Positions 1,118 to 60,591 are shown, counted from the stretch's first letter. The stretch is DNA of 64,000 bases from Ignavibacteriota bacterium (GCA_016218045.1 JACRFB010000046.1:1-64000); one strand, 5' to 3'. The notes: a model not told the origin generated them from the sequence alone. Numbers and translations: made by a program.

Positions 1118-1120
1118 TAC

Positions 1121-1410
1121 AGGACAGCGGGACAGCGGGACAGCGGGAGAGCGGGACAGCGGGACAGCGGGACAGCGGGACAGCGGGAGCGGAACAACGA
1201 AATAGTGTCTCGCTGAGCGGAGTCGAAGCGCGACGGGACAGCGGGACAACGGGAGAGCGGGACAGCGGGACAGCGGGACAGCGGGAGAGCGGGACAGCGG
1301 GAGCGGAACAACGAAATAGTGTCTCGCTGAGCGGAGTCGAAGCGCGACGGGACAACGGGACAACGGGACAGCGCGACAGCGGGACAGCGGGAGCGAACTC
1401 GCTCCACCCC
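1121..1410 (+). repeat. GACAGCGG octanucleotide array with two interspersed 50-bp repeats
   Basis: The array starts 4 bases after the mazG stop and is G-rich on the mazG coding strand. Units are mostly GACAGCGG, with GAGAGCGG and GACAACGG variants. Two near-identical copies of a roughly 50-bp sequence containing CGCTGAGCGGAGTCGAAGCG interrupt it at about 1189-1240 and 1299-1350. Three-G runs with 5-base loops (ACAGC) fit the simple G-quadruplex pattern on the mRNA-sense strand. Confidence 0.9.
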
Positions 1411-1429
1411 CTTATAAAAAGATGTTGTT

Positions 1430-1675
1430 GTCCGATTATACCTCCGTGCAAGCGACTCCTGTCTCCTGCCTCCTGTCTCCTCACACGGCCCCGGTAGACC
1501 AACCTACCCATCTACCAACTACCATCTACCCGTTCCTTAAAAAGAGGGGGTTGTCCGATTATATCTCTGTGCAACAGACTCCTGTCTCCTCCCTCCTGTC
1601 TCCTCCCTCCTGTCTCCTCACACGGCCCCGGTAGACCAACCTACCATCTACCATCTACCGTCTACCCATCTACCC
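1430..1675 (-). repeat. GGTAGAT / GGAGACA heptanucleotide array
   Basis: Read on the minus strand, the TAG stop of the heparinase-like gene runs straight into GGTAGAT-type heptamers. A GGTTGGTCTACC hairpin follows, then GGAGACAGGAGG-type heptamers in two blocks separated by a repeated TATAATCGGACAAC-type segment. The array is G-rich on the minus strand, opposite in polarity to the neighbouring array behind mazG. Confidence 0.88.
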
Positions 1676-4595: not shown

Positions 4596-7025
4596 ATGGC
4601 CTACCCGCTGCGTCCAACCGATCTCCGTCCCGCTCCGCCTCACGTCGCTCTTCCGGCCGACACGCTGCGATGGACCTGTCCCCTCGAAACTATACCCGCG
4701 GAAACCACCGAAGGAGTGGAACCTGTGGAGGGTATTATCGGGCAGGAACGCGCGATCAAAGCCCTGCAAATGGGTGTGGAGCTTGTGGGCCCCGGCTACA
4801 ACGTGTTTGTGTGCGGACTCTCCGGCACCGGCAAGGCCACCACGATTCAAACCATACTCGAAAAAATCCAATTGCCGTGTACACCTCCCGAGGATTTGTG
4901 TTACGTGCACAATTTCCGTGACGAGGACAGGCCCACCCTTCTGCGTTTCCCCGCGGGCCAGGGTGCGCGTTTCCGTGATGAACTCGCCGAGGCGATAGGT
5001 GTCCTGCGTCAGCGTATTCCACGCGCTCTCGAGGAGGACGAGTATCTCAAGAAGCGGCAGTCCATCATCGACGAGTACGGGCGCCGTGAGGCCGAAACCT
5101 TCGAGGCATTTTCGCAGACCATCGCGCCCGACGGTTTTGTGCTCGGCCGTGTGCAGGAAGGACAGGTGGTGCATCCCGAGATCCTCGTCAAAATAGAGGA
5201 CAAGGCCGTCATGATCGGCGACCTCGGCGAGGCAGTGCAGGCGGGCACCATCACCGAGGAACAGGCCGAGGCGCTGGTGGAAAAGTACCGCGCGCATCGC
5301 GAGGTGCTGCAGGGACTGTTCCGCGCCGGCCTCCAACTCTCGCGCGAATACCAGAAACTGGTCGCGGATCACGAGAAGATGTTTGTGTCGGTCATGGTGC
5401 AACTCGTCTTTACCGAGATGTTCGAGCTGTTCCCCGATGCGAAAGTGGCCGAGTATCTCGCACTGCTCATCGATCATGTGCTCGCGAATCTCGATCTGTT
5501 CCGCGAACGGGGGCAGGGCGAGGACGAGCCCGATCTCACGATGTACGAGGTGAACCTCGTCATCGACAACGAGGGAGTCGACGGGTGTCCGGTGATCATC
5601 GAGACGGCGCCCTCGTACACGAATCTGTTCGGCACCATCGAGCGGCAGCAGGATACGCAGGGATTCTGGTTCACCGACTTCACGCGTATCAAGGCCGGAT
5701 CCATCCTTCGCGCGCAAGGTGGCTTCCTTGTGCTCAACGCGGCCGACGTGCTCAGTGAACCGGGCGTGTGGCGCGCCCTGCAGCGTGTGCTTATCTACCG
5801 CAAGCTCGACATACAGGCCCTCGATCTTATCACACAACAGACCGCCTCCGCCATCAAGCCCGAGTCCATCGACCTGAATCTCAAGGTCATCCTCATCGGC
5901 AATAACGAGATCTACGGACTGTTGATGGCCTATGAGCGCGACTTCAAAAAAATCTTCAAGGTGAAGGCCGACTTCGACTACGAAATGCCGAACACCGAAC
6001 TCGCCGTGCACCAGTACGCCGCGCTGATCCGCAAGCTGGTGAGCGACGAGGGACTGAAACATTTCGACAACACGGCCATCGCCGCGGTGGTCGAGTACGG
6101 CGCGCGCCGTTCCGACAGCAAGGACAAACTGACGACGCAATTCAGCGTCATCGCCGACATCGTGCGCGAGGCGCATTACTGGTGCCGCAAAAACAGCAAC
6201 CGCTACGTCATGGCCGAGCACGTGCACAAGGCCATCGACGAGATGCGCGAGCGCCACGGACTGTTCGAGGACAAGATGCAGGAGATGATCGATCGCGAGG
6301 TGATGCTGATCGACGTCGAGGGGGAACGTGTCGGACAGATCAACGGCCTCGCGGTGTATGGCGGCGACCGTTTCGATTTCGGCAAACCCTCGCGTATCAC
6401 CGCGGCCGTGGGCGCGGGCGAGGCGGGCATCATCAACATCGAGCGCGAGGCGCACATGTCGGGCTCCACGCACGACAAGGGCGTGCTTATCCTCACCGGG
6501 TACATGCGCGAAACCTTCGCACAGCGGCAGCCGCTCGCGCTCAGCGCCAGTCTCTCCTTCGAACAGTCCTACTCGGGCATCGACGGCGACAGCGCCTCGT
6601 CCACCGAAATCTATGCGCTGCTCTCGGCGCTCTCCGGCATCCCCATCCGCCAGCAGTACGCGGTGACGGGCTCGGTAAATCAGAAGGGCGACATTCAGCC
6701 CATCGGCGGCGTGAATGAAAAGATCGAGGGTTTCTTCGACGTGTGCCGCAAGCGCGGACTCACGGGCATGCAGGGTGTGTTGATCCCCGTGCAAAATGTC
6801 GCCGACCTGATGCTGCGCACCGATGTTGTGGATGCAGTCCGCGCGGGCCGCTTCCGCATCTACGCAGTGCGCCGCATCGAGGAGGGGATCGAAATTCTCA
6901 CCGGCGTCGAAGCCGGCTCGCGCGACGAGGAAGGAAACTTCGAAGCTGGAACGGTGTTCGGACTCGCCGCCGCACGTTTGAAAGAACTGCTTGCCGTGTC
7001 GCGGAAAAGGCGCGCGAAGAAGTAA
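4596..7025 (+). CDS. Lon-like ATP-dependent protease (AAA_32 / LonB-type)
   Basis: This 809-residue cytosolic ATP-dependent serine protease belongs to the Lon-like family that has a divergent AAA module and a C-terminal Lon protease domain (related to E. coli YcbZ). Walker A GLSGTGKATT lies at about residues 74-83 and a long helical insertion follows (about 150-300). The Lon domain carries the Ser-Lys dyad: Ser in GDSASSTEIY (about 665-668) and Lys in GGVNEKIEG (about 709). The length is normal. I chose ATG 4596, which has an AGGA Shine-Dalgarno, over TTG 4557, which lacks one. The gene is followed by a GAAGAGG array and, 0.7 kb on, by ssrA; both would serve protein quality control. Confidence 0.92.
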   Translation: MAYPLRPTDLRPAPPHVALPADTLRWTCPLETIPAETTEGVEPVEGIIGQERAIKALQMGVELVGPGYNVFVCGLSGTGKATTIQTILEKIQLPCTPPEDLCYVHNFRDEDRPTLLRFPAGQGARFRDELAEAIGVLRQRIPRALEEDEYLKKRQSIIDEYGRREAETFEAFSQTIAPDGFVLGRVQEGQVVHPEILVKIEDKAVMIGDLGEAVQAGTITEEQAEALVEKYRAHREVLQGLFRAGLQLSREYQKLVADHEKMFVSVMVQLVFTEMFELFPDAKVAEYLALLIDHVLANLDLFRERGQGEDEPDLTMYEVNLVIDNEGVDGCPVIIETAPSYTNLFGTIERQQDTQGFWFTDFTRIKAGSILRAQGGFLVLNAADVLSEPGVWRALQRVLIYRKLDIQALDLITQQTASAIKPESIDLNLKVILIGNNEIYGLLMAYERDFKKIFKVKADFDYEMPNTELAVHQYAALIRKLVSDEGLKHFDNTAIAAVVEYGARRSDSKDKLTTQFSVIADIVREAHYWCRKNSNRYVMAEHVHKAIDEMRERHGLFEDKMQEMIDREVMLIDVEGERVGQINGLAVYGGDRFDFGKPSRITAAVGAGEAGIINIEREAHMSGSTHDKGVLILTGYMRETFAQRQPLALSASLSFEQSYSGIDGDSASSTEIYALLSALSGIPIRQQYAVTGSVNQKGDIQPIGGVNEKIEGFFDVCRKRGLTGMQGVLIPVQNVADLMLRTDVVDAVRAGRFRIYAVRRIEEGIEILTGVEAGSRDEEGNFEAGTVFGLAAARLKELLAVSRKRRAKK

Positions 7026-7105
7026 AGAAGGAAGAGGGAAGAGGGAAGGGGGAAGAGGGAAGGGGAAAGAGGGAACAGGGAAGGGGGAAGAGGGAAGAGG
7101 GAAGA
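7026..7105 (+). repeat. GAAGAGG heptanucleotide array
   Basis: About eleven purine-only heptamers (GAAGAGG, GAAGGGG, AAAGAGG, GAACAGG) begin immediately after the TAA stop of the Lon-like gene. The purine-rich strand is that gene's coding strand. It fits the simple G-quadruplex pattern. Confidence 0.9.
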
Positions 7106-7109
7106 AAAA

Positions 7110-7133: not shown

Positions 7134-7510
7134 GCCGGAACGGATGTGCGGGAGAGCAGTCGTTCGGTACTGCGGAAAGCACGCGCACCCTCAAAGAGCT
7201 GGGGAAAGCAGCGCGACCGCAATGCCGGACGCCAACCGCGTCCTGTTCCCTATTCGATGTGTGTGATCAACCGCGTTGGAGGATTCACCGCAGTGACCAG
7301 CGATGGGCTCACATCGCAAACACGTTTCATATCGCTCAAGACGAGTCATCGAAACAACCTTTTAGGGAAAACTCGACAGATCCAGAAAATCTGGATGCTC
7401 GTTCACGAGAGTCAACCAGGAATGACAAGCGTGTCACGAACAAAGTTACACCGCGCGATCCGCGGGACAGAAGGAACTGTGTTCTGCCGAGCTTGTCGAG
7501 GTGCGGCGGA
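7134..7510. other. Intergenic stretch with no recognisable feature
   Basis: This sequence lies between the hairpin and the next heptamer array. Short open frames exist but none has a family-like sequence or a good ribosome binding site. I see nothing else in it. Confidence 0.5.
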
Positions 7511-7567
7511 GTGGGGAGTAGGGAGTAGGGAGTGGGGAGTAGGGAGTGGGGAGTAGGGAGTGGGGAA
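7511..7567 (+). repeat. GGGGAGT/AGGGAGT array embedded in an interspersed repeat
   Basis: About eight GGGAGTA/GGGAGTG heptamers sit between GCGGAG and TCGAAGCGCGACG. In the two copies of the interspersed repeat at about 1217-1236 and 1327-1346 these two halves are directly adjacent. The array therefore looks like an expansion or insertion inside a copy of that repeat. Confidence 0.85.
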
Positions 7568-7691: not shown

Positions 7692-7700
7692 CCGTGAAGC

Positions 7701-8051
7701 GGGGATGCTCCGGTTTCGACGGGGGGCAGGATGTCCGCGACTGCGTGCCGTGCCTGTCGCAAGCACGTTAATCTTACGGCAAGGCATTAACTGCCAACTA
7801 TAACTACGCACTGGCCGCCTAAACGGTGACCACGTCCCCCCGAGGCCTGACTGTCGGCTGAAGGATGGGGCGACGCCAAAGACAGGATAGGATTCCAGCG
7901 TCCGGGGAAGAATCCGAAACCCATCTCCGGAATAGCCGACTGATGTATCCTGTGTGCCGGAGGCACAGTCAGCGAATGTAAAAGACACACTACGCATGTA
8001 GACGTCTCGGAGTCTTCTCTTCGGACGGGGGTTCGACTCCCCCCATCTCCA
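7701..8051 (+). ncRNA. ssrA: tmRNA (transfer-messenger RNA)
   Basis: tmRNA rescues stalled ribosomes by trans-translation. The 5' end GGGGATG (7701-7707) pairs with CATCTCC (8044-8050) as a 7-bp acceptor stem. The third pair is G-U, the alanyl-tRNA synthetase identity element. TTTCGAC near the 5' end and the GGGTTCGACTCCC T arm near the 3' end are diagnostic. The tag frame most likely resumes at GCC after TTAACT and reads ANYNYALAA followed by TAA. A longer in-frame upstream reading is possible but less like known resume sites. The discriminator A is at 8051. The genome continues ACAG there, so CCA is not encoded and must be added. The product is about 350 nt and is followed by a strong terminator. 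Confidence 0.97.
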
Positions 8052-8065
8052 CAGCTTAGTACGAC

Positions 8066-27726: not shown

Positions 27727-27734
27727 TGATGAGG

Positions 27735-27935
27735 GCGTAAAGGGGTAAAGGGGTGAAGGGGTAAAGGGGTGAAGGGGTAAAGGGGTGAAGGGGTGAAGGG
27801 GTGAAGGGGTAAAGGGGTGAAGGGGTAAAGGGGAAGGGGTAAAGGGGAAGGGGTAAAGGGGTGAAGGGGTAAAAGGGTAAAGGGGTAAAGGGGTGAAGAG
27901 GTAAAGAGGTAAAGGGATAAAGAGGTAAAGGGGGC
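27735..27935 (+). repeat. TAAAGGGG/TGAAGGGG octanucleotide array
   Basis: About 24 units of TAAAGGGG, TGAAGGGG and shortened AAGGGG follow the minisatellite. Four-G runs with 4-base loops fit the G-quadruplex pattern on the top strand. A related tract in the opposite orientation lies at 37133-37195. Confidence 0.92.
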
Positions 27936-30043: not shown

Positions 30044-30079
30044 GAGGAGGTAGATGGTAGTTGGTAGATGGGTAGATTG
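30044..30079 (+). repeat. GGTAGAT heptanucleotide array
   Basis: GGAGGTAGATGG-type heptamers begin at the TAG stop of the preceding gene and are G-rich on its coding strand. They lead into the 110-bp units. Confidence 0.85.
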
Positions 30080-30440
30080 GTAGATTGGTCTACTAAATCC
30101 GCGTGAGGAGACAGGATACAGGAGACAGGAGTGTATCGAATCGCGGTCTGACTCCTGACTCCTTCATCCTGTGTCCTTTCACTCCTTGTGTAGATTGGTC
30201 TACTCAATCCGCGTGAGGAGGCGGGATACAGGAGACAGGAGTGTATCGATTCACGGTCTGTCTCCTGAGTCCTTCATCCTGTATCCTCACACTCCTTGTG
30301 TAGATTGGTCTACTCTATCCGCGTGAGGAGACAGGATACAGGAGACAGGAGGTGATCGAGTCGCGGTCTGTCTCCTGACTCCTTCATCCTGCATCCGCAC
30401 ACTCCTCGTGTAGATTGATGTACTCTGTTCGCGTGAGGAG
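30080..30440 (+). repeat. Three 110-bp palindromic tandem units plus a partial fourth
   Basis: Units start at 30080, 30190, 30300 and 30410, exactly 110 bases apart. Each has a GTAGATTGGTCTAC hairpin, then CCGCGTGAGGAG, then GGAGACAGGATACAGG-type heptamers, a ~20-base loop (ATCG..TCACGGTCTG), and the imperfect reverse complement CTCCTTCATCCTGTATCC. The arms are about 29 bases with four or five mismatches. Other copies lie near 33.3, 35.4, 36.8 and 53.2 kb. Confidence 0.88.
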
Positions 30441-30492: not shown

Positions 30493-31056
30493 GAGCCCCG
30501 GAGGGGCGACATTCACCAACCCACGCCGTGAGGCGTGGGAATGCGACGCGTGAGGAGAACCCAAGAGCCCCGGAGGGGCGACATTCAAAGGTCGAGTTCA
30601 CGGAGTTGACTCCCCAACGGAAGATTTGTTCATGTGACGCAGTGTCCCGGAATGCCGCCCGCTTCGCGGGCTCTCTGCGATTCGGTGCCGGGCCGTTCCC
30701 CACACCTGACGGTGTGGGTTGGTGAATGCCGCCCGCTTCGCGGGCTCTCTGCGATTCGATGCTGGGCGGTTCCCCACGCCTCATGGCGTGGGTTGGTGAA
30801 TGCCGCCCGCTTCGCGGGCTCTCTGTGATTCGATGCCGGGCCGTTCCCCACGCCTCACGGTGTGGGTTGGTGAATGCCGCCCGCTTCGCGGGCTCTCTGC
30901 GCTTCGATGCCGGGCCGTTCCCCACGCCTCACGGCGTGGGTTGGTGAATGCCGCCCGCTTCGCGGGCTCTCTGCGATTCGATGCCGGGCGGTTCCCCACG
31001 CCTCACGGCGTGGGTTGGTGAATGTCGCCCGCTTCGCGGGCTCCCCGGACACTTTC
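30493..31056. mobile_element. REP-like cluster lacking a transposase (deletion derivative)
   Basis: One and a half left-type 72-bp units (GAGCCCCGGAGGGGC hairpin) at 30493 and 30565 are followed by a short core. Six right-type 74-bp units starting at 30651, 30725, 30799, 30873, 30947 and 31021 come next (GCCCGCTTCGCGGGC hairpin plus CCACGCCTCACGGCGTGG hairpin). The core (30585-30650) matches both ends of the RAYT element at 35.7-36.8 kb. It still encodes, on the minus strand, the last residues LRELDL and stop of that transposase, with synonymous changes only. Confidence 0.85.
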
Positions 31057-31160
31057 GACGATCAGATGATCAGATGATCAGACGATCAGACGAATAGACG
31101 ATCAGACGAATAGACGATCAGACGATTAGACGATCAGACGATTAGACGATCAGACGATAA
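31057..31160. repeat. 8-bp array (GACGATCA)n
   Basis: Thirteen octamers (GACGATCA, GATGATCA, GACGAATA, GACGATTA) abut the last 74-bp unit. Eight of them contain GATC. Confidence 0.9.
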
Positions 31161-31230
31161 AACGACACAGCGGCCCGATTCTCTCCGCGATCCATGCGGC
31201 GTGTGCGTGAGTCATGAATGACATCCGACA

Positions 31231-31395
31231 GGGGCGACCGGCGGTCGCCCGACACCACCACGGAACACGAGTAAAACACTGCCCAGAATAGATCAGTCGC
31301 CCTCTCCCGGAACGGGAGAGGGCCGGGGTGAGGGTGAAAGTCCCGCCCGCTTCGCGGGCTCTCTGCGATTCGATGCCGGGCCACTCCAGACGCAG
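31231..31395. repeat. Cluster of short palindromes (REP-like)
   Basis: GGGCGACC/GGTCGCCC (31232-31250) and CCCTCTCCCG/CGGGAGAGGG (31300-31322), the latter followed by CCGGGGTGAGGG, are of kinds seen scattered in many bacterial genomes. A solitary right-type REP unit (GCCCGCTTCGCGGGC) follows at about 31346-31390. Confidence 0.7.
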
Positions 31396-31566
31396 CGAGA
31401 GTGTGTTAGAAAATCGTGAAATCGACAAGGGTGCGCCGAAGTGTATTGCCGCCTCGCGGGTGCGCGGTTATTTTTTCAATGTTGATCATCACAACGTCGG
31501 AGTCCGCTTAACGCGGAAACTCTCGACGGATACATTCGATTGCCTTCAAGCATCATTGGACTACTC

Positions 31567-31905
31567 ATGGAAATTCGTGTCGAAGAAACCCCGGCGTTCA
31601 CTCACATCACTTTAACCGGGCGGCTGGATATCGAAGGATCGGGTCAGATTGAGACGCGGTTGACCGCGTATACGAGCACCACGGATGAAGCGCGGATAGT
31701 GCTGGACCTCGGCGGTGTCGAGTACCTGGCCTCGATCGGACTCGGTCTTCTTGTCCGCGCAGCCCAGGGTGTGCAGCGCCGAAGGGGGAAGCTTGTGCTG
31801 CTCAATCCACAGCCGCTCGTACGAAAGGTGCTGTCGAGCAGCTCGATCGACACACTTGTGCCCGTTCTTGATGAAGGGACGGACCTCGCTGCGCAGTTTC
31901 AATAA
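31567..31905 (+). CDS. STAS-domain anti-sigma-factor antagonist
   Basis: This is a 112-residue single STAS domain of the SpoIIAA/RsbV type, a cytosolic partner-switching regulator that binds and sequesters an anti-sigma kinase when unphosphorylated. The phosphorylatable serine is S56 in YLASIGLGLLV. Length is normal for the family. ATG 31567 follows a short TTG-initiated extension that is not conserved. The HATPase gene follows after 31 bases, the arrangement expected for an antagonist/kinase pair. Confidence 0.9.
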   Translation: MEIRVEETPAFTHITLTGRLDIEGSGQIETRLTAYTSTTDEARIVLDLGGVEYLASIGLGLLVRAAQGVQRRRGKLVLLNPQPLVRKVLSSSSIDTLVPVLDEGTDLAAQFQ

Positions 31906-31936
31906 TTGATGCGCGGACGAAATTACTCATCGCGGA

Positions 31937-32392
31937 ATGGTTGAGACACACGTGTCACTGGACGTGACCACGGGAGTCGCACTGCTGTGTCGCCGCGGCG
32001 ACCATGCGGTGTTGCGCGAGGCCACGTTGTGGCTACATGAAACATGCAGGCGTTACGGTGTTCCGGCGGATGCGACAGGCCGGCTGGATTTCTGCCTCAA
32101 CGAACTCATGTCAAACATTATCGACCACGGGTACCTCGACGAAGATACACATACGGTATCGATCTCCTGTGATTTTACATCACACGCAACCGTGCTTCGG
32201 ATACGCGACGACGGTGTACAATTCGACGCGGCCGGAACGGATGGATACATACAGCCAACATCACTGCAGGAAGCAGGCAGCCGGGGCTACGGCCTGCATC
32301 TCGTACACAGTTTTGCGGATGGGATGAGGCATACGTACAATGAGGGATGGAACACGGTCGAGCTGCACATTGCCCACGCTACCAGCCATTAG
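31937..32392 (+). CDS. Anti-sigma-factor serine kinase (RsbW/SpoIIAB-like HATPase)
   Basis: This 151-residue GHKL ATPase phosphorylates its STAS antagonist and binds a sigma factor or other target. The N box NELMSNIIDHGY is at about 55-66, G1 DDGVQFD at 91-97 and G2 GSRGYGLHLV at 114-123. It forms an operon with the STAS gene upstream and probably the TPR gene downstream. No sigma factor or PP2C phosphatase is in the window. Confidence 0.9.
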   Translation: MVETHVSLDVTTGVALLCRRGDHAVLREATLWLHETCRRYGVPADATGRLDFCLNELMSNIIDHGYLDEDTHTVSISCDFTSHATVLRIRDDGVQFDAAGTDGYIQPTSLQEAGSRGYGLHLVHSFADGMRHTYNEGWNTVELHIAHATSH

Positions 32393-32405
32393 GCGCCCGA
32401 CGAGC

Positions 32406-33290
32406 ATGGTATCACGCATGAAAGGTCTCCGTTGCAATGACACGTCTGAACGAGGGCTGCTGGACGCGGCTTCCACAGCACAAAGCAGGTGTAAGCACAA
32501 TATTCAGAAAGCCGCCCTTGGATTCATCGTCCTGGGTTTGCTGAGTGTGTCACTGCGTGTCGACGCGTCCGCCGCGGGTCCCGACCGTTCGCTCGAGTCA
32601 TATCAGCAGCTTGCGGACTCGTTATTTCGCTCCTGCAACTGGAAGCAGACACGCGCGACGCTGATGGAAGCCCGGCGCGTGTACCCACGCAGCGCAGAGG
32701 TGTTGTGGCGGCTTTCCAATTCGTACATCAACGAAGGTGACGCGCTCGAGGGAGACAAGGCCGAGGCGGCCTTCCACCGGTCGATCGAGTATGCAGAAGA
32801 GGCAGTGCGGAGCGATCCGCGTAACGCGAATGCACATGCATTACACGCGGCTGCGCTCGGCAGCCTCGCGATGTTCGCGGGCGGAAAGCAGAAGGTGAAA
32901 ATGACGTATCAGATACGGGACGCCCTTGACCGTGCGCTCGCGATCGATCAGGCCAACGTCATTGCGCATACCATCTACGGAACCTGGCATCGCGAAGTGG
33001 CGGACGTGGGGTGGGTGGAAAGAAAACTGGCGGATGTGTTTCTGGGCGGTTTACCGAAAGGGAGTTTCGAACTCTCGGTGCGTCATTTGAAGTCTGCCAT
33101 CCGCAGCGATCCGGGCATGTTGCGGCATCATTACGAACTCGGGCTGACCTACGAAGCGATGGATCAGCCGCTGCGTGCCGCAGCCGCGTATCGAGCTGCG
33201 CTTCTCTGTTCTGATTCGTGGTCCATTGATTGGAAACGTCGCCAGCGGATGAAGGACTTTCTCGCGGAACATGCGGAGAGTGGAACGTAG
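32406..33290 (+). CDS. Exported TPR-repeat protein
   Basis: A 294-residue protein has a hydrophobic leader at about 36-56 (ALGFIVLGLLSVSLRVDASA), so it is probably exported or anchored. TPR-like helical repeats follow (YPRSAEVLWRLSNSYINEGD, DPRNANAHALHAAALGS, DPGMLRHHYELGLTYEAMDQ). It resembles bacterial relatives of the RMD1 microtubule-dynamics family, which are TPR proteins of unknown role. The long N terminus before the leader makes the start uncertain (ATG 32406 or 32418). Only 13 bases separate it from the kinase gene. The TAG stop runs into a G-rich array. Confidence 0.72.
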   Translation: MVSRMKGLRCNDTSERGLLDAASTAQSRCKHNIQKAALGFIVLGLLSVSLRVDASAAGPDRSLESYQQLADSLFRSCNWKQTRATLMEARRVYPRSAEVLWRLSNSYINEGDALEGDKAEAAFHRSIEYAEEAVRSDPRNANAHALHAAALGSLAMFAGGKQKVKMTYQIRDALDRALAIDQANVIAHTIYGTWHREVADVGWVERKLADVFLGGLPKGSFELSVRHLKSAIRSDPGMLRHHYELGLTYEAMDQPLRAAAAYRAALLCSDSWSIDWKRRQRMKDFLAEHAESGT

Positions 33291-33480
33291 CGGGGAGATT
33301 GGTAGAGGGTAGATGGGTAGAGGGTAGATGGGTCGACACTATCCGCGTGAGGAGACTGGATACAGGAGACAGGAGTGTATCGAATCACGGCCTGTCTCCT
33401 GACTCCTTCATCCTGTATCCTCACACTCCTTGCGTAGATTGGTTTACTCTGTTCGCGTGAGGAGACGGGATACAGTTGCT
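33291..33480 (+). repeat. GGTAGAT array with 1.3 copies of the 110-bp unit
   Basis: GGTAGAGG and GGTAGATGG heptamers begin within a few bases of the TPR stop. One complete 110-bp palindromic unit and the start of a second follow (about 33434). It is G-rich on the TPR coding strand. Confidence 0.85.
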
Positions 33481-33524
33481 ACGTCTACTATTGTGTGAGT
33501 GCCGTGAGGTGGTGCGAGGGTGGT

Positions 33525-33557
33525 GAAAAAAAAAGAGCGCACTGTTGTGCGCTCTTT
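33525..33557 (-). terminator. Intrinsic terminator of the dockerin-like gene
   Basis: AAAGAGCGCAC / GTGCGCTCTTT form an 11-bp perfect stem with a 4-base loop. On the minus strand a run of T follows, as expected for the gene ending at 33577. Confidence 0.88.
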
Positions 33558-33576
33558 GACTCAGGACGAATCGTGT

Positions 33577-35199
33577 TTACTTATCGAGTTGCAACTTGAT
33601 GGTGCGTGAGAATGTGGTGCCGCTTTCGCTGCCGACAATCATGATGCTTGCCAGGTAGCTGCCACTCTTCAACCCGCTGCCGTTAAACACCGCGGTGTGA
33701 ACACCACGATCGACATCGCCATCCACAAGCCGCGCAACTTCACGGCCCAGCATATCGTGCACCTGCAATGTCACAAATCCCTTCTCGGGAAGTGAATACC
33801 GTATGGTGGTGGAAGGATTGAAGGGATTCGGATAGTTCTGATCCATATCGAAGCTGCCGGGAAGGAAGGCCGTGGCTGCGTTTTTCAAAGAGCCATAGCG
33901 ACGCATCCAATTCAGCTTCATCGCGATATAATCAAAATTGTTCACCACACCATTGCCGTCACAGTCCATATGGCAACCATCAGGCGTCTGCCACGGCACC
34001 GCGGGTTGCGCCTCCCATGTATAATACGTCAGGGGATTCGCCGCGGCATCCGCGCGGTAGCGGCTCGGACCGTTCAGCCAGATGGGATTGAGATTGGCGT
34101 TGCTTATATACATGTTGAGCGCGCGACGGTCTCCGTAATTCACCACGCCGTCATGATTCGTTTCGCCAGGCCAGACGTAACAGGGTTCGGATCCCGCATT
34201 CAGGAGCATAAACGCCTTCTCGGGAAGTTCGGTGTCGCCATACTCCGCACAGGTGTTGATCGAGTTCACCGTGAATTTGACGCGGTAATATCCCGCCATC
34301 AGCGTGGGAGGGATCGACAGCGGAAGAAGCGCGTGAAGATCCACATTGTCGAGTTTCGCTGTGTTGACCGTGGTGGAATAATCCGGGAAGGCGGTCGAGT
34401 TGCCGATGCGGAAGAAATCCGCCTTCACAGACACATTTGATGCGCCTGTCGGATACCCGAGATACACGCTCGCGTACACTGTTCCCGGAATGTGTGCAAA
34501 CGCGACGGGGGAACCCACGCCATCCGTGAGATCCACCGTGAGCATTCCGGCGGGCACCTCACAGGCGGGCATCTCGTCCACTCCGAATGGATACAGATAG
34601 CGGTCGATGCCATAGCCGTTGGGCGAGGAACAGCCGCTTCCGAGCGGATTCGTGTTGTAGATCCTGTGATAGGGTCCGGAGGAATTCAGATACGTGCGTG
34701 CGGAAAAACCACCGGTGATCGACGTGTTGCAGATGCGGACGAGCAGCGGGAGCGCGGGATCGTAGAGCACGGGCGCAGGAAGTGTGATGCGGAACCACTG
34801 ATTGACCGCTCCCGCTGGGATGGTAGCCAGACCGCTGTAGACAGTTGGTCCGGTGGTGTAGGTGAGAAATGACGCGTTGAAATCGTAGGTCGCGGGTTGT
34901 GACATACGGATGTTCAAGGAAGGCAGCGTCGTGCCCGAACTGTTTGCAGAGCCGCGTTTCATGTAAATGGCGGTGATTTTTCCCTTGTACGCTCCGTTGA
35001 TCTGCCCGGGGCGGATCAATAACTGAATCGGTATGTTGGTTGACGACCAGGGAAAGGAATTGGTGCTGGCCGTACCGGTTTCCGAGATGGAGAACTGCGG
35101 TGTCTGTGCCGATAGCACCGGCCCAAAAAAGGAACACAGAATACTTGCCGCGCATACAACAAGCGCGGTGACCACACGTGAATTGTATCGATGTTTCAT
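33577..35199 (-). CDS. Secreted protein with dockerin-like repeats and T9SS sorting domain
   Basis: A 540-residue protein has a leader of about 31 residues (ending VLSAQ), a beta-rich N-terminal half with LPSLNIRMSQPATYDF, and a pair of dockerin-like calcium loops (NHDGVVNYGDRRALNMYI and DCDGNGVVNNFDYIAMKLNW). The C terminus is a textbook sorting domain with NYPNPFNPSTTIRYSLPEKG and DMLGREVARLVDG. In T9SS bacteria such loops are usually structural rather than cellulosomal. GGAGG 8 bases upstream fixes ATG 35199; an in-frame extension to 35280 lacks a site. A strong intrinsic terminator follows. Confidence 0.88.
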   Translation of the reverse strand: MKHRYNSRVVTALVVCAASILCSFFGPVLSAQTPQFSISETGTASTNSFPWSSTNIPIQLLIRPGQINGAYKGKITAIYMKRGSANSSGTTLPSLNIRMSQPATYDFNASFLTYTTGPTVYSGLATIPAGAVNQWFRITLPAPVLYDPALPLLVRICNTSITGGFSARTYLNSSGPYHRIYNTNPLGSGCSSPNGYGIDRYLYPFGVDEMPACEVPAGMLTVDLTDGVGSPVAFAHIPGTVYASVYLGYPTGASNVSVKADFFRIGNSTAFPDYSTTVNTAKLDNVDLHALLPLSIPPTLMAGYYRVKFTVNSINTCAEYGDTELPEKAFMLLNAGSEPCYVWPGETNHDGVVNYGDRRALNMYISNANLNPIWLNGPSRYRADAAANPLTYYTWEAQPAVPWQTPDGCHMDCDGNGVVNNFDYIAMKLNWMRRYGSLKNAATAFLPGSFDMDQNYPNPFNPSTTIRYSLPEKGFVTLQVHDMLGREVARLVDGDVDRGVHTAVFNGSGLKSGSYLASIMIVGSESGTTFSRTIKLQLDK

Positions 35200-35374
35200 A
35201 ACCCACCTCCTGTATGTGCAAAAAGTCCACGCGACACGACGGCTGCGAGTGCACAGGTGCTTCGGGAGGGGACACGCCACATTTCATGGCGGTCTGGGAA
35301 TCGTGTCTGATGGAAGGACACGATAATTTATCGCTGTCACGCAACTATTGCAAGGGAAAATGTGGGTACAACGG

Positions 35375-35720
35375 GATTGGGTAGATGGTATTTAGGTAGA
35401 TAGTAGTTGGTAGATGAGTAGAGGGTAGTTTGGTCTACTCTGTCCGCGTGAGGAGACAGGAGACAGGAGACAGGAGTTGATCCTGCCTGGTGTCTCCTGC
35501 CTCCTTCATCCTGTATCCTCACACTCCCTTTGTAGGTTGGTCTGCTCTGTCCGCGTGAGGAGACAGGAGACAGGAGGCAGGAGTGTATTGAATCACGGTC
35601 TGACTCCTGACTCCTTCATCCTGTGTCCTTTCACTCCTTGTATAGATTGGTCTACTCTATCCGCGTGAGGAGACACCGGGTAACTTGATCTACTTTCCCA
35701 CTTTGCTACTTTCTGCATTC
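35375..35720 (+). repeat. GGTAGAT array and 110-bp units beside the RAYT element
   Basis: GTAGAT heptamers are followed by palindromic units starting at 35425, 35532 and 35642 (107 and 110 bases apart). A linker (ACTTGATCTAC then CCCACTTTGCTACTTTCTGC) joins them to the REP-like units and is nearly the same at 30440-30492, so the two repeat clusters share their whole left flank. Confidence 0.85.
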
Positions 35721-35723
35721 CAC

Positions 35724-35965
35724 GAGCCCCGGAGGGGCGACATTCACCAACCCACGCCGTGAGGCGTGGGAGAGCGATGCGTGAGGAGAACCCACGAGCC
35801 CCGGAGGGGCGACATTCACCAACCCACGCCGTGAGGCGTGGGAGAGCGACGCGTGAGGAGAACCCAAAAGCCCCGGGGGGGCGACATTCACTAACCCACG
35901 CCGTGAGGCGTGGGAATGCGGCGCGTGAGGAGAACCCAAGAGCCCCGGAGGGGCGACATTCAGAG
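35724..35965. repeat. Left-type REP units (72 bp x 3 plus partial)
   Basis: Units begin at 35724, 35796, 35868 and 35940. Each has a GAGCCCCGGAGGGGC hairpin, GACATTCACC, an ACCCACGCCGTGAGGCGTGGG hairpin and GCGTGAGGAGAACCCA. They flank the 3' end of the transposase gene, whose stop codon lies in the last partial unit. Confidence 0.9.
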
Positions 35966-36415
35966 GTCCAATTCACGGAGTGTGAAAGCATCAAACGCGA
36001 GTTCATTCTGTCGGAGCAATTCGAGGTACTCCTCCTTGAATGTCATCGTCCGATGATGTTCACGTTGCCGGCGGATGTACTGGACAACTCTTTCGACGTG
36101 CGATTGTGATATGCTGAATATTCCGTACCCCGTACTCCAGCCAAAGCCACGAAGACCCTTGGCCTTCAACCACCGTGACGTATTCGCTTTCACTTTGCAG
36201 ATGAGATCGCCTGTCGAGATCGTTCTTCCGAGACGCAGACAGAGATGGAGGTGATCGTCGACACCGCCAATCTGGAGGGCTGGACAGTCCACATGCGTGA
36301 GGATACCGTGTGTATAGGCCCAGAGTTCCTCATGTAGGGCATCAGGAATCCGGGTGTGGCGATTCTTTGTTCTGTACGTCGCATGCAGAATGATCTTTGA
36401 ATGAGAATGAGACAT
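35960..36415 (-). CDS. REP-associated tyrosine transposase (RAYT, IS200-like Y1)
   Basis: This 151-residue single-strand DNA transposase is of the HUH/Y1 superfamily. The HUH motif is H55-L-H57 in GGVDDHLHLCL. The catalytic tyrosine is most likely Y113 in ERVVQYIRRQREHH. The segment FSISQSHVERVVQYI is typical of IS200-like proteins. Length is normal. GGGAGG upstream fixes ATG 36415; the frame open to 36478 is not needed. The gene is bracketed by left-type units in one orientation and right-type units in the other, as for RAYT genes that mobilise REP elements. No frameshift is seen, so it may be active. Confidence 0.92.
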   Translation of the reverse strand: MSHSHSKIILHATYRTKNRHTRIPDALHEELWAYTHGILTHVDCPALQIGGVDDHLHLCLRLGRTISTGDLICKVKANTSRWLKAKGLRGFGWSTGYGIFSISQSHVERVVQYIRRQREHHRTMTFKEEYLELLRQNELAFDAFTLRELDL

Positions 36416-36511
36416 GTTTTCCTCCCGTTGATGGACCGATTGATCCAACGATGTGGATCTATTCCTTGTACTCCCCAAGCGAAAATTTGTTCCCGTGGTT
36501 CAGTGTCCTGG

Positions 36512-36800
36512 AATGCCGCCCGCTTCGCGGGCTCTCTGCGATTCGATGCCAGGCCGTTTCCCACGCCTCACGGCGTGGGTTGGTGAATGTCGCCCGCTTC
36601 GCGGGCTCTCTGCGATTCGATGCCAGGCCGTTCCCCACGCCTCACGGCGTGGGTTGGTGAATGTCGCCCGCTTCGCGGGCTCTCTGCGATTCGATGCCGG
36701 GCCGTTCCCCACGCCTCACGGCGTGGGTTGGTGAATGCCGCCCGCTTCGCGGGCTCTCTGCGATTCGATGATGGGCCGTTCCCCACGCCTCACGGCGGAG
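36512..36800. repeat. Right-type REP units (74 bp x 4)
   Basis: Units begin at 36512, 36586, 36660 and 36734, 74 bases apart, with the GCCCGCTTCGCGGGC hairpin and the CCACGCCTCACGGCGTGG hairpin. The last unit breaks off after CACGGCG. They lie upstream of the transposase and match the six units at 30651-31056. Confidence 0.92.
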
Positions 36801-37070
36801 AGCTAGGTAGATGGTAGCAGGTAGTTGGTAGATGGTAGCTTGGTCTACTCTATCCGCGTGAGGAGACAGGATACAGGAGACAGGAGTGTATCGAATCACG
36901 GTCTGTCTCCTGACTCCTTCATCCTGTATCCTCACACTCCTTGTGTAGATTGGTCTACTCTGTCCGCGTGAGGAGACAGGAGACAGGAGGCAGGAGTGTA
37001 TTGAATCACGGTCTGTCTCCTGACTCCTTCATCCTGTATCCTCACACGAGTGTGACGGCGCAGCCGATGA
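36801..37070 (+). repeat. GGTAGAT array and two 110-bp palindromic units
   Basis: GGTAGATGGTAGC-type heptamers are followed by units starting at 36835 and 36945, exactly 110 bases apart. No gene on this strand ends just upstream, so this array is not stop-codon-linked. Confidence 0.85.
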
Positions 37071-37071
37071 T

Positions 37072-37198
37072 AGTCGGTAGATGGTGATGGTAGATGGTAG
37101 ATCGGTAGGGCGGTAGAAGTTGTGCAACTTTGCTACTTTACCCCTTTCCCCCTTCACCTCTTTCCCCCTTCACCTCTTTACCTCTTTACCCCTTTGCG
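37072..37198. repeat. GTAGATG tract and pyrimidine-rich CCCTTCACCTCTTT array
   Basis: A short GTAGATGG tract passes into ACTTTGCTACTTT. It is followed by C/T-rich units that are the reverse complement of the GTAAAGGGG family at 27735. It ends 10 bases before the ATG at 37209, so it would form the leader region of that gene. Confidence 0.8.
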
Positions 37199-43878: not shown

Positions 43879-44904
43879 ATGAGTTCCTGCAGCATAGAGG
43901 TGCGTCCCGAGGGAGGGAAGTCGGTGTTTGTCGGCGGGGCAACGATGCGCGGAAGTTTGGTGCTGCGCGCGACAAGCGCCTGCACGGTGCGCGGCGTGGA
44001 TCTGCGGCTGCGTTGGGAGACGTCGGGCCGCGGCAACACGGTGCGGGGAAAAACCGATGAAGTGCGCGTCGGTGAACCCTTCGAGCTGCAGGAGGGCGAC
44101 GAGCGTGTATTTCGTTTCGAGCTGCCGCTGCCCGAGAGTCCGATCAGTTACTCCGGAAAGTTGTTCGCCGTGCAATGGGTGTTGTCGGCGGAGGTTGATG
44201 TCGCCATGGGGCTCAATCCCGACATCGATATGCCTTTCGAACTGATCGCGGCAGAGCGCGCAGGCGAGGGCGTGCTCGGCCCCTCGTTCAACCGCGAGGC
44301 GTTGCAGCGAGCCCAGCGTGTGAGCACAGGGTCGCGCATGATCTGGTCCATCGTCGCGGGAATCATTTTCGCCGCGGTGTTTATTCTCGTGGGCGCGCTC
44401 TCGCCGAATTGGGATCATCCCTCGAGTGAGGACATCCTCTACGGCGCCGGATTTTTCCTTCTCGCGCTTGTGGGATTCGTGCTCATCGCGGGCGGCGCCA
44501 TACAGAGCAGGATGCGCGGCCAGATGCAGGCATCCCTGCGCAATCCCTTGTTGCGCCGCGGTGAGACGCTGCAGGCCGCAGTCACATTTACGCCGCGCCG
44601 CACCGTGCGCGTCGAGTATGCAACGGTGCGCCTCGAACTTCGGGAACACACGCGGCGCCAGGCGGGCAAGTCGACACATGTACATAAACATCCCGTGTAC
44701 GCCGACGAGCACCGCATCCGCGTGGGCGAGGAATTGCCCGCCGGTGTGCCGCGCGAGTTGTTCGCGCAGATGACAGTACCCCCCGACCAGCCACAATCGA
44801 TTTGTGTTCGCGACAACGAGCTGGAATGGCGCGCGACGGTGCGGCTCGAATTTTCATCCGGCCGACCGATCGAGATGGAGTATCCGATTGCGGTGTTGCC
44901 GTAG
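43879..44904 (+). CDS. Arrestin-like membrane protein (split by two TM helices)
   Basis: A 341-residue protein with no signal peptide. Residues 1-130 resemble an arrestin or Spo0M-like beta sandwich (VFVGGATMRGSLVLRATSAC, RFELPLPESPISYSGKLFAV). Two hydrophobic helices follow (IWSIVAGIIFAAVFILVGAL and GAGFFLLALVGFVLIAGGAI), then a second beta domain with RRGETLQAAVTFTPRRT and QMTVPPDQPQS. Both beta domains would face the same side of the membrane. The function is unknown. AGGAG 7 bases upstream supports the start. The TAG stop runs into a G-rich array. Confidence 0.7.
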   Translation: MSSCSIEVRPEGGKSVFVGGATMRGSLVLRATSACTVRGVDLRLRWETSGRGNTVRGKTDEVRVGEPFELQEGDERVFRFELPLPESPISYSGKLFAVQWVLSAEVDVAMGLNPDIDMPFELIAAERAGEGVLGPSFNREALQRAQRVSTGSRMIWSIVAGIIFAAVFILVGALSPNWDHPSSEDILYGAGFFLLALVGFVLIAGGAIQSRMRGQMQASLRNPLLRRGETLQAAVTFTPRRTVRVEYATVRLELREHTRRQAGKSTHVHKHPVYADEHRIRVGEELPAGVPRELFAQMTVPPDQPQSICVRDNELEWRATVRLEFSSGRPIEMEYPIAVLP

Positions 44905-45020
44905 GAGCTAGGATCTAGGAGATAGGATCTAGGAGTGGGGGTGGGGAGTAGGGAGTAGGGAGTGGGGAGTTGGAGTGGGGAGTGGGGAGTGGGGAGTAGG
45001 GAGTAGGGAGTAGGGAGTAA
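44905..45020 (+). repeat. CTAGGAT and GGGAGTA heptanucleotide array
   Basis: TAGGATCTAGGAG-type heptamers begin at the TAG stop and pass into GGGGAGT/AGGGAGT units. It is G-rich on the arrestin-like gene's coding strand and fits the simple G-quadruplex pattern. Confidence 0.9.
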
Positions 45021-45129
45021 AATAGCAGTCTCCTGTCTCCTGTATCCTGTCTCCTCACACACGCCGAGTAGATCAACCTACCTATCTACCATCTACCAAC
45101 TACCCATCTACCAACTACCCATCTACAAA
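45021..45129 (-). repeat. GGTAGAT / GGAGACA array behind the Rieske gene
   Basis: On the minus strand the TAG stop of the Rieske gene is followed by GTAGATGGGTAGTTGG heptamers, a short hairpin (GGTTGATCTACTC) and GGAGACAGGATACAGG units. It is G-rich on the minus strand and meets the opposite-polarity array at about 45.02 kb. Confidence 0.88.
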
Positions 45130-53134: not shown

Positions 53135-53426
53135 ACTCTCCACACTCGTGTGAGGAGACAGGATACAGGAGGCAGGAGGCCTTCGAGTAAGGTTCTGTCT
53201 CCTGTCTCCTTTCTCCTGTGTTCTCACGGGAGTGTGAGGACGGAGCAGATAATAGGTGGTAGACGGTAGATGGTAGGTGGTAGATGGTAGTTCGGTCTAC
53301 TCTGTTCGAGTGAGGAGACAGGATACAGGAGGCAGGAGGGGGAGTTCTCGTCTAAGAGTTCCTAGTTCCTAGTTCCTAGTTCCTAGTTCCTAGTTCCTAG
53401 TTCCTAGCTCCTAGCTCTCCGTCCCC
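53135..53426. repeat. Palindromic GGAGACA unit plus CTAGTTC heptanucleotide array
   Basis: A GGAGACAGGATACAGGAGG tract with its reverse complement CTCCTGTCTCCTTTCTCC forms an imperfect palindrome near 53155-53225. GGTAGATGG heptamers and a second GGAGACAGG tract follow. At 53358-53418 about eight TAGTTCC units abut the TAG stop of the outer-membrane gene. On that gene's coding (minus) strand they read CTAGGAA, so this end too is G-rich in the coding sense. Confidence 0.82.
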
Positions 53427-56452: not shown

Positions 56453-56467
56453 ACCGCTGCGTCGCCG

Positions 56468-57832: not shown

Positions 57833-58293
57833 GGGAACTCCGGTCGTGCGGGAGATGGGGCAGCGTGTACTAATCTAATCGAATCCGGCATTGATCCATA
57901 CCGTTGCTCGCCCGAATGTTTGTGCGGCGAAACCAAATGCCAATTCCGACATAATGAATCCGTTATATGATGTATTGTGCCTGCGGCAGACTACAACAAC
58001 AGCAGCATATTTTGACAGCGGCAGGTGTATGACACACACTCGCACCTTTCAGTGCGCCCTTGCTCCTGTGGCCGGGTGTATCATCGGTGACAGTTTCCCG
58101 ACACAGGGCGAGCGTGCTGTTCGCGCCCTTTTGCCCGATGAGCCGGGTGAGGCGTTTCGACGGTATGTCGATCGGCATGCTGGAAGGGAGGGTGGATCGG
58201 CATTCGTCCGCGCCTGCCCGTATCCGTCGCGGATTTCTTCCTTGAATCTCGGGCGGAATTGCATGAAATTCCGGCGACAGATTCGAGGCAACG
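57833..58293. other. Divergent intergenic region
   Basis: A 461-base spacer between divergent T9SS-cargo genes. Open frames here overlap the next gene out of frame and are not gene-like. I see no repeat array; promoters for both genes are expected here. Confidence 0.45.
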
Positions 58294-60534
58294 ATGTCGG
58301 GGGTTCAACGCACTCTGTGGGTGATGCTGGCATGGTGTATCGCGGCTGGTATGGCGCAGTCGCAGACCGTGCTTCATCTCAAAAGAGCGGACCTGCAGTG
58401 GCCCGTGATCTCGCTGAGATTCGCGGTGGACTGCGGCGGGCTGCCCTCGTTCGACGTTGTGAAGCGCGACCTGCTCCTCCGTGAAAATGGAAGGGAGGTG
58501 CACAACTTCGACGTTGTATGCCGCGACACAACACCGCGCTGCCCCATGTCGGTGGCGCTGACCTTCGACGTCAGCGGAAGCATGATGGGCGTCGGCATCG
58601 ACGAGGCGCGCGTGGCGGGCAAGGCCTTTGTCGAAGCGATGGACGGCGTCAAGGACGAGGCCACGGTTGTGGCGTTCAGCAATATCGTCCGTGTCGTGCA
58701 GACGATGACCACCTCGAAAGGGCGGCTGCGTGTCGCGATCGAAGGACTTGTCGCCACGGGTGGTACGACCATGATCAACGGATGCTACACGGCCCTCGAG
58801 GAATTGGCCGCCAAGGGACGCAACCGTTGCAAGGCGGTGGTATTACTTTCCGACGGAGCCGACAACGGCAGTTGGCGCACGGTGCAGGAGACCATAGCGC
58901 TGGCGAACGCGAACGCGGTGAAGATTTATTGCGTGGGACTCGGCACGCGTCTCGACACCCTGCAACTCAAGCAGCTCGCCAATGGAACCGGCGGCCGCTA
59001 CTTCGAAGTGTACGACCCGCAGCAGCTCAGCGAGGTGTATCGTGTCATCGCCGAACTCGCGACACGCGACGATCCGGACTGCATACTTCGGTACACGGCC
59101 TCGTGCACCGACGACACGACGCGGTCCATCGAACTCGTCCTGCGCGACTATTGCGGCGGAAGCGACAGCGCGACTGTCACCGTGACAGTGCCCGGCGCGG
59201 CGGGCCGCAATCGACCGCTTGCTTTTCGCATGCAGGATGCGGCCGTGTGGGAGGGGAGTGTCCTGTCAGTCCCTATATCGGTGTCGGATACGCTCGCAGC
59301 GGAAATGCTGCCGCGCGGCGATCTCTACATTCGTTACGATCCGTTTCTCCTTGGCGCGCCCGCGGCGCGCGATTCGGGCACGCTGCTCGCGCAGGGCACC
59401 GCCCTGGTACTTGACGCAAGTAACGGACGCGCGCATGTCCGCCTCCTCCGCGACAACATCTGCAGCGGATCAGGAGTGCTCTTCGCGCTCGACTTTCCGA
59501 CACGCGACGTATCCGACACGGTCTGCGCTCCGGTGTTCCTTGAACGTGTGAGTTTCGACGAGGGGTGCATCGTGCCCGCGGCGCTGCCGGGACGTGTCTG
59601 TGTGTATCCCTGCACGATGCACGTACGGCTCGATCCGGAAGGGGAGCGTGAGATCTGCGAGAGCGACAGTCTGCTGCTGCGGGCGGATCCCGGCTTCGCG
59701 CGCTACGAGTGGTTCCGCGACGGCGTGTTGCTCGGCGACACCTCCGCGTCGATCCACGCCCGCGGCGCAGGTGAATATCGCGCCCGCGTGAGCGACATCC
59801 ACCAATGCACAGCGGAGACAGGCACGCTGCTCTTACGCACAGTCTCATCGGCCCCCCGCACAGCGGGGAACGGCGATCGCCAGTTTCTTCCCGACGCCAT
59901 GCCGCGTGTGCTGCCTTTCCGTCTCGAACCGGCGTATGAAGCCGGGAGGCACTTCACTGCGCGGCTGCGGCTGTTGTACGATCCGCGCCTGCTGCGCGCC
60001 CCGCGCATCGACTCGAGCGTAGAACGGTGCTGGTCCGGGAGTATGCGCGTATCGGGAAGCCCGGGTCTGGCGGATGTAACACTGAGCGGAATGATGGATG
60101 GATCGGATCACCCGTTTCTCCGTTTCGTGTTGGAAGCCGTGCCGCAGAAACGCGTCGATTCAACATCGCTCACCTACACGATGGATCTGTCGACGGGGTG
60201 TGATGCCGCGTTGACGCTGCATCATACGCCTGTCCTGCTTGACGGCTACTGCGAAAGCATCCTGCAGCGCGCAGCGCCTCTTTCGCTCAGGGTGTTCCCG
60301 AATCCCGCCACGTCCATGGCTGAGCTTGAACTCTCCGCGCGCGACGAAGGCAGCGTCACCGTGCAGATATCCGACAGTTACGGACGTGTATGTCTTATGT
60401 TGTACGACGGACCGCTCGCCGCGGGTGGCACGACACTTCGTGCCGATCTCGGGGCGCTACCCGCAGGCGTGTATCTCGTCACCGCATCATCGTCGTACCA
60501 CACCGCCGTCACGCCACTCGTCCTTATCCGTTAA
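58294..60534 (+). CDS. VWA-domain secreted protein with T9SS sorting domain
   Basis: A 746-residue protein has a leader (about 1-23, ending AQSQ). The von Willebrand A domain (about 85-265) has an intact MIDAS: D92-x-S94-x-S96 in FDVSGSMM, Thr in GGTTMING and Asp in LLSDGADNG, so it should bind a metal and a ligand. A cohesin-like/Ig-like region follows (LFALDFPTRDVSDTVCAPVF), then FARYEWFRDGVLLGDT (PKD-like). The sorting domain has VFPNPATSMAELEL and PAGVYLVTASS. The likely role is adhesion or substrate binding at the surface. GAGG just upstream supports the start. Confidence 0.87.
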   Translation: MSGVQRTLWVMLAWCIAAGMAQSQTVLHLKRADLQWPVISLRFAVDCGGLPSFDVVKRDLLLRENGREVHNFDVVCRDTTPRCPMSVALTFDVSGSMMGVGIDEARVAGKAFVEAMDGVKDEATVVAFSNIVRVVQTMTTSKGRLRVAIEGLVATGGTTMINGCYTALEELAAKGRNRCKAVVLLSDGADNGSWRTVQETIALANANAVKIYCVGLGTRLDTLQLKQLANGTGGRYFEVYDPQQLSEVYRVIAELATRDDPDCILRYTASCTDDTTRSIELVLRDYCGGSDSATVTVTVPGAAGRNRPLAFRMQDAAVWEGSVLSVPISVSDTLAAEMLPRGDLYIRYDPFLLGAPAARDSGTLLAQGTALVLDASNGRAHVRLLRDNICSGSGVLFALDFPTRDVSDTVCAPVFLERVSFDEGCIVPAALPGRVCVYPCTMHVRLDPEGEREICESDSLLLRADPGFARYEWFRDGVLLGDTSASIHARGAGEYRARVSDIHQCTAETGTLLLRTVSSAPRTAGNGDRQFLPDAMPRVLPFRLEPAYEAGRHFTARLRLLYDPRLLRAPRIDSSVERCWSGSMRVSGSPGLADVTLSGMMDGSDHPFLRFVLEAVPQKRVDSTSLTYTMDLSTGCDAALTLHHTPVLLDGYCESILQRAAPLSLRVFPNPATSMAELELSARDEGSVTVQISDSYGRVCLMLYDGPLAAGGTTLRADLGALPAGVYLVTASSSYHTAVTPLVLIR

Positions 60535-60536
60535 TC

Positions 60537-60591
60537 ACCACTCCACCCTTCTCCCTTCACTCTTCCCCCTTCACCCTTCCCCCTTCACGAA
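60537..60591 (-). repeat. GAAGGGG heptanucleotide array
   Basis: On the minus strand GAAGGGGGAAGGGTGAAGG-type heptamers follow the TGA stop of the gene ending at 60592 and fill the whole gap to the convergent gene. The array is G-rich on that gene's coding strand. Confidence 0.88.

Follow-up and report, generated by a model that had tools for sequence, protein, structure and literature searches.

G-rich 7- and 8-bp tandem arrays head away from open reading frames and lie at stop codons in an Ignavibacteriota genome

Introduction

Nine genes in a 64-kb stretch of DNA from an Ignavibacteriota bacterium (GCA_016218045.1 JACRFB010000046.1:1-64000, hereafter called the window) end beside a tandem array of 7- or 8-bp units. 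The question raised by this locus, which spans positions 1118-60591, is why simple repeats should be anchored on stop codons with a fixed strand polarity. The original prediction was that the arrays nucleate at, or are selected in, mRNA 3′ ends, and that the coupling to gene 3′ ends and the sense strand is new. Tandem heptamers, known as STRR repeats, are found between genes in filamentous cyanobacteria, and by description they resemble the present arrays in being intergenic heptamer tandems.

Strand-specific placement has been reported for the GGGNATC and GGGGA(C/T)T heptamers of two Xanthomonas genomes and one Nostoc genome, so that the claim of novelty has to be withdrawn (Rehm et al., 2015; PMC4692102). 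These repeats lie in sense within 50 bp of stop codons and in antisense within 50 bp upstream of starts; they form convergent pairs, overlap stop codons and are scarce between divergent genes, the modal array has four units, and their function was left open (PMC4692102). Another heptamer, TAACTGA, occurs as direct repeats in Beggiatoaceae, Cyanobacteria and Bacteroidetes; a stop-codon constraint was stated for it, and in BOGUAY the repeats, which are not G-rich, lie mostly just upstream of starts (MacGregor, 2015; PMC4679880).

Results

Arrays at stop codons in the window

The window is part of a 4.77-Mb genome in 72 contigs. Tandem Repeats Finder (TRF) found a 7- or 8-bp array adjoining the stop codon of all nine genes, in agreement with our reading of the sequence, and the spacing between stop and array ranged from an overlap of a few bases to +12 bp. 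As predicted, the G-rich strand was the coding strand of the gene ending there in 9/9 cases (such an array is called G-sense here), and codon reading bore out TAG at six of the nine stops. TAG was likewise a minority at the remaining stops: among the other complete gene calls in the window (n=22), 4 end with it. The nine arrays, and a tenth found by TRF near a start, are as follows.

1122-1302, plus strand: GGACAGCG 8-mer array, G-sense to the mazG-like gene (MazG, PF03819 match) ending at 1117 with TGA
1641-1674, minus strand: GGTAGAT-type array, G-sense to the heparinase-like gene (PF07940 match) with its TAG stop at 1676-1678
7025-7105, plus strand: AAGAGGG array (unit without a stop codon), starting on the final base, 7025, of the TAA of the Lon-like protease gene
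30049-30089, plus strand: GGTAGAT array, 5 bp past the TAG stop at 30043
33292-33333, plus strand: GGGTAGAT array, after the TAG stop at 33290
44902-45019, plus strand: TAGGAGC array that opens with the TAG stop of gene 43879-44904 as its first unit and continues into a GGAGTAG array
45078-45126, minus strand: GGTAGAT/GGTAGTT array, G-sense to the minus-strand gene ending at 45130 with TAG
53357-53414, minus strand: TAGGAAC/TAGGAGC array, G-sense to the minus-strand gene ending at 53427 with TAG
60535-60588, minus strand: AGGGTGA-type array that fills the 57 bp between convergent genes and is G-sense to the one with its TGA stop at 60592
37136-37195, minus strand: GGGTAAAG array, with its G-rich strand antisense, upstream (13 bp) of the plus-strand start called at 37209

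Several arrays in the window share a gap with a G-rich array, to which they form the C-rich counterpart: the array at 1641-1674 is the C-rich right arm of gap 1118-1675, and that at 45078-45126 is the right arm of the gap that also holds 44902-45019. A counter-case was uncounted in the original prediction; the array at 60535-60588 directly abuts the TAA of the plus-strand gene 58294-60534, to which it is C-sense. Further arrays lie away from stops at 118-199, 7508-7566, 27732-27933, 31057-31158, 35380-37195 and 53195-53290. The Lon-like protein has its nearest match in a Bacteroidetes genome (65% identity), and no relative of the 43879-44904 protein was found outside its own genome in one ortholog search.

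Following the array at 30049-30089 are ~110-bp units with AGGAGAC arms and C-rich partners; the related AGGAGAC units in the window gave no Rfam match. Elsewhere in the same genome, on contigs C40, C59 and C63 (e.g., C40:122019 and C63:25238-25495), AGGAGAC forms alternating G and C arms with a CCTCACACGAGCGTGAGG centre, arranged in tandem units of about 85-110 bp as an RNA-like repeat.

A gene for a Y1 (IS200-like) transposase was also observed at 35960-36478 (minus strand), flanked by inverted blocks of 72-74-bp units. Together they look like a REP/RAYT-type system (30494-31043 and 35725-36797). The units on one flank match Rfam Acido-Lenti-1 (RF01687), so that this family may represent a palindrome linked to a transposon and not an independent RNA. 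An Rfam scan of the window returned this family and tmRNA only, with no match at the 7/8-bp arrays.

Census of arrays in 35% of the genome

TRF and gene calling were applied to stretches totalling 1.65 Mb, or 35% of the genome, on contigs picked by size and known repeat content and not randomly. The 1146 genes were called with our own simple ORF and codon-context caller instead of standard annotation, and their starts are less certain than their stops. In total, 258 arrays of period 7 or 8 were found by TRF, which misses degenerate arrays and whose score cut-off biases copy number, and 250 of them were intergenic (165 of 7-mers and 85 of 8-mers). Array density was 15.7 per 100 kb, with counts that are non-independent where one gap holds several arrays. 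Repeats of period 9 and 12 fell almost exclusively in coding sequence.

At least 14 unit families of G-rich 7/8-mers coexist in the genome, the main units being ACAGGAG, ACAGCGGG, AGATGGT, AACGGGG, AAAGTAGC and AGCTAGG, among others. Arrays were densest in convergent gaps (2.73 per kb), followed by tandem (1.06) and divergent gaps (0.52). On the G strand, a G3 quadruplex pattern was present in 55/250 arrays and a G2 pattern in 179/250; the C strand had none.

The G-rich strand heads away from the nearest ORF

In the 1.65 Mb, 56 of the arrays within 10 bp of a stop were G-sense and 10 were G-antisense. Uniform placement with random strand gave a mean of 8.4 per orientation, and at most 16 and 19 in 500 simulations, so that the predicted enrichment at 3′ ends in one polarity was upheld. 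In this comparison with random positions, which covered 35% of the genome, arrays were not equally frequent in the two orientations, nor were they equally frequent at starts: only four lay within 10 bp of a start, all G-antisense.

Over longer distances, 83 of the 94 clearly skewed arrays within 60 bp of stops were G-sense. Of the 27 within 60 bp of starts, 24 were G-antisense and 3 were G-sense, the array at 37136-37195 being an instance of this mirrored polarity. Since starts mirror stops, the polarity is not stop-specific, and the claimed tie of the arrays to stops and the sense strand gives way to a wider rule: at either end of a gene, the G-rich strand, read 5′ to 3′, heads away from the ORF closest to it. 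Of the proposal that the arrays are selected in mRNA 3′ ends, the one-polarity enrichment there thus stands, but its restriction to 3′ ends does not. The tmRNA gene of the window (7701-8054) has C-rich CTACTTTG arrays upstream, as the polarity rule would have it for the start of an RNA gene.

Between tandem and convergent genes, gaps holding just one array also followed the rule. Single-array tandem gaps had 18 G-sense versus 2 C-sense arrays near the stop and 2 versus 14 near the start; in single-array divergent gaps (n=11), the rule was absent (6 versus 5). Where a gap held several arrays, the order on the plus strand was G-then-C in 40/58 gaps and C-then-G in 3. Irrespective of gene orientation, array gaps change from G-rich at their left side to C-rich at their right side. 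GC skew went from about +0.35 to about −0.25 across convergent and tandem array gaps, and in the same direction, less regularly, across divergent ones. Array-free convergent and tandem gaps showed no comparable gradient. That C-sense arrays had escaped notice inside lengthened ORFs, as an artefact of gene calling, was rejected; only 8 arrays were coding, and none was a C-sense tail.

The placement was then compared with uniform expectation separately for units with and without stop codons. Within 10 bp of stops, G-sense arrays were in excess in both classes (38 observed versus 4.7 expected for stop-bearing units, 12 versus 2.8 for stop-less ones), while C-sense arrays numbered 2 versus 4.5 and 2 versus 2.8, respectively. 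Within 60 bp, C-sense arrays were depleted at stops (3 versus 20 expected; 7 versus 15) and G-sense arrays were depleted at starts (2 versus 9.5; 1 versus 10.1). An excess at stops is therefore accompanied by avoidance near starts. Polarity was stronger in arrays with G-runs: at stops, G-sense versus C-sense counts were 63 versus 6 for G4-capable arrays and 26 versus 11 for others, and at starts, G-antisense versus G-sense counts were 22 versus 2 and 4 versus 4.

A small replicate was provided by G068, a genome of the same phylum with other heptamers (TGGGTAA and AGGACTG), in which five arrays within 20 bp of stops were G-sense and none was the reverse; one TAA stop lies inside a TGGGTAA array. 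The arrays of G068 (loci L275-L288) are dense but uneven, with 33 intergenic arrays on about 112 kb (four contigs) and 0 on 139 kb (three contigs).

Repeat units supply stop codons

In the background set of 1062 complete genes, 157 ended with TAG. Among G-sense arrays beside stops, those with TAG-bearing units were at TAG stops in 28/31 cases, and those with other units in 8/32. The TAG excess at array stops therefore arises because the units themselves contain TAG, and the reading of TAG as an anchor or targeting signal was rejected. The TAG recurs downstream in array register in 17 of 18 cases (first 863 kb).

A frame test on consensus units showed that for GGTAGAT, GGGAGTA, GTAAAGGC and GGTGAAG, the G-rich strand closes all frames within 7 codons, and the C-rich strand never does. 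In TAGGAGC, both strands are closed by stops, and GGACAGCG, AGGAGAC, AAGAGGG and GGGGAAC carry stops on neither. At 3′ ends, arrays often start on the stop codon itself. Across the 1.65 Mb, 35 arrays overran the 3′ end of an ORF (median 5 bp, maximum 23), so that its stop falls within the repeat, and no array overran a 5′ end. All strongly skewed overrunning arrays (32/32) were G-sense. Six genes share the C-terminus GRW*; in five, the array spells it with GGTAGATGGTAG, i.e., the codons GGT AGA TGG TAG, and a near match, GGA CGG TGG TAG, is present in the sixth (C26 31019-31843).

Comparison with relatives

A GGAGTRG triplet array was found in 0/60 relatives, of which 11 belong to the same family, and five same-family genomes had 2 arrays in 246 kb. 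Orthologs were sought with concatenated C-termini in G003, the closest of the same-family genomes, which is array-poor. The orthologs of 23 array genes differed at the C-terminus by −10 to +4 residues (median 0; 15/23 within 2 residues), and in six array-free control genes, the differences were comparable (−3 to +4). Eleven TAG stops at arrays corresponded to 10 TGA and 1 TAA in G003. The gap of one syntenic convergent pair measures 245 bp in the present genome and roughly 95-100 bp in G003.

The same end residue with another stop codon in G003 suggests that a pre-existing repeat probably overran the old stop and supplied the new one; we infer the ancestral stop indirectly, because the G003 proteins are no more than about 50-87% identical. 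Nucleation of arrays at stops is not borne out, as the units are genome-wide families and the orthologs stop at the same residue with a different codon.

Discussion

The arrays described here are an unusually rich case of an already described repeat type. We consider, at a probability of roughly 55% for the explanation as a whole, that they represent a lineage-specific expansion of G-rich 7/8-bp simple repeats occupying non-coding gaps, and that stop capture, avoidance at starts and a weaker force at stops together make the pattern. These pressures are what we infer behind the observed placement and overrun.

Under stop capture, a G-sense array alone may touch or overrun an ORF end without a long repetitive tail being added. 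Only this orientation would be tolerated because the G-rich strand of GGTAGAT, GGGAGTA, GTAAAGGC and GGTGAAG stops all frames and the C-rich strand never does, and the TAG bias and the strongest enrichment would follow from it. However, stop capture does not cover the polarity of the stop-less AAGAGGG, GGACAGCG and GGGGAAC, nor that of the Xanthomonas GGGAATC repeat. Moreover, the count of 38 stop-bearing G-sense arrays versus 4.7 means that purging bad orientations is insufficient and implies some attraction or benefit. A further pressure would be avoidance of G-rich sense RNA within about 60 bp of starts, plausibly through G-quadruplex or Shine-Dalgarno-like interference with initiation. The weaker pressure, which would strengthen with G-runs, would favor G-sense over C-sense just past stops for stop-less units. 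Avoiding Rho-loading C-rich RNA beside the stop is proposed as its cause, and this is the least certain step. Rho is encoded in the genome, and C-rich RNA is a Rho target (PMC13323073). With no comparable gradient in array-free convergent and tandem gaps, a general Rho rule for all gaps is not apparent. The coding purine fraction is 0.498, i.e., without purine bias; Rho avoidance through purine loading is therefore not obviously strong here, and purine loading of coding strands was rejected as a cause.

Alternatively, slippage on purine-rich sequence around a pre-existing TAG stop might seed the arrays, as was originally envisaged, and the stop in register with the array in 17/18 TAG cases would fit such an origin. 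We regard it as improbable, given that the units are families common across the genome and not copies of their own gene's 3′ end, that G003 has TGA or TAA at all 11 compared TAG sites, and that stop-less units are also anchored. A role at transcription boundaries might be considered instead: G-rich RNA would pause the polymerase (via a G-quadruplex or R-loop) and C-rich RNA would load Rho, the paired arrays being putative bidirectional Rho-dependent terminators that replace intrinsic ones. The Rho gene is present, array density is top in convergent and bottom in divergent gaps (2.73 and 0.52 per kb), and the G-then-C order (40/58 versus 3) is as expected for this arrangement. Intrinsic terminators were rarer in tandem gaps with arrays than in array-free ones (4/71 versus 53/287, p=0.006, at the strictest of three cut-offs), and tandem array gaps, measured in 78-nt windows, had a median C/G excess of 2.8 versus 1.7 in shuffled sequence, although this excess is itself a consequence of polarity. 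Against replacement, convergent gaps showed no clear difference in terminators (9/38 with arrays, 11/33 without), and the scan of G003 orthologs found 0 intrinsic terminators at such sites to be replaced. Nor are the arrays intrinsic terminators themselves, as hairpin-plus-T sites were no more frequent in array gaps than in array-free ones and were fewer in tandem array gaps. Overall, the boundary role appears unlikely as the explanation. Its broader form, in which 7/8-bp repeats would be polar gene-boundary elements that halt polymerases leaving genes and not those entering, and unrelated families in several phyla would have converged on the boundary orientation because it is selected, seems rather doubtful when both claims are taken together.

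The polarity might also reflect the geometry of palindromic elements, as neighbouring genes would meet the G arm first if a hairpin had a G-rich 5′ arm. AGGAGAC units do form clear inverted pairs inside the units of about 85-110 bp, and same-family complementary arms occurred in 14/47 two-strand gaps versus 5.8 by random pairing. In the other 33/47, however, the arms belong to differing families; polarity persists in single-array gaps (18:2 and 14:2), and array gaps fold no better than array-free ones (median z −1.69 versus −1.59). Hairpins were therefore rejected as a general cause, a reading to which we give very little credence, and hold only for the AGGAGAC family. The folding, terminator and C/G tests left a general hairpin unsupported and supported a Rho-type boundary role weakly. 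Insertion beside stops in one orientation by a mobile element, such as the IS200-like/REP system of the window, is most implausible: the Y1 transposase gene and REP-like units do lie amid arrays (30494-37108), but the window's other stop-anchored arrays have no REP unit or transposase nearby, and at least 14 unit families occur, most following one polarity. REP/BIME elements with RAYT are intergenic palindromes near gene 3′ ends, and a Y1 transposase with such units is present in the window, whereas the 7/8-bp arrays belong to many simple-repeat families and for the most part lack both palindrome and transposase.

The arrays share with the repeats of Rehm et al. an intergenic, G-rich and lineage-specific character, G-sense orientation near stops and antisense orientation near starts, convergent pairs, stop overlap and under-representation in divergent gaps. 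They differ in that at least 14 families, including 8-mers, coexist in one Bacteroidota genome, none of the main units being GGGNATC or GGGGAYT; many units bring stop codons that become the gene's own stop, and a G3 quadruplex pattern is present in only 55/250 arrays. Like the TAACTGA repeats, they are intergenic heptamers whose forward orientation carries stops and whose reverse is open, and the overrun of ORF ends is slight in both (up to 18 nt for TAACTGA, PMC4679880; up to 23 here). In contrast to TAACTGA, which is absent among the units, the present arrays are G-rich and have the stop codon as their anchor.

The polarity of G-rich heptamers was reported in 2015 without a cause. Many families in one background, together with array-poor relatives, split it into two components: a stop-codon effect, which is largely explained, and an effect growing with G-runs, which is not. 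The simple repeats point to replacement of stop codons and to short C-terminal tags, with protein length little changed. In array-rich genomes, therefore, TAG usage and C-termini can be products of the repeats.
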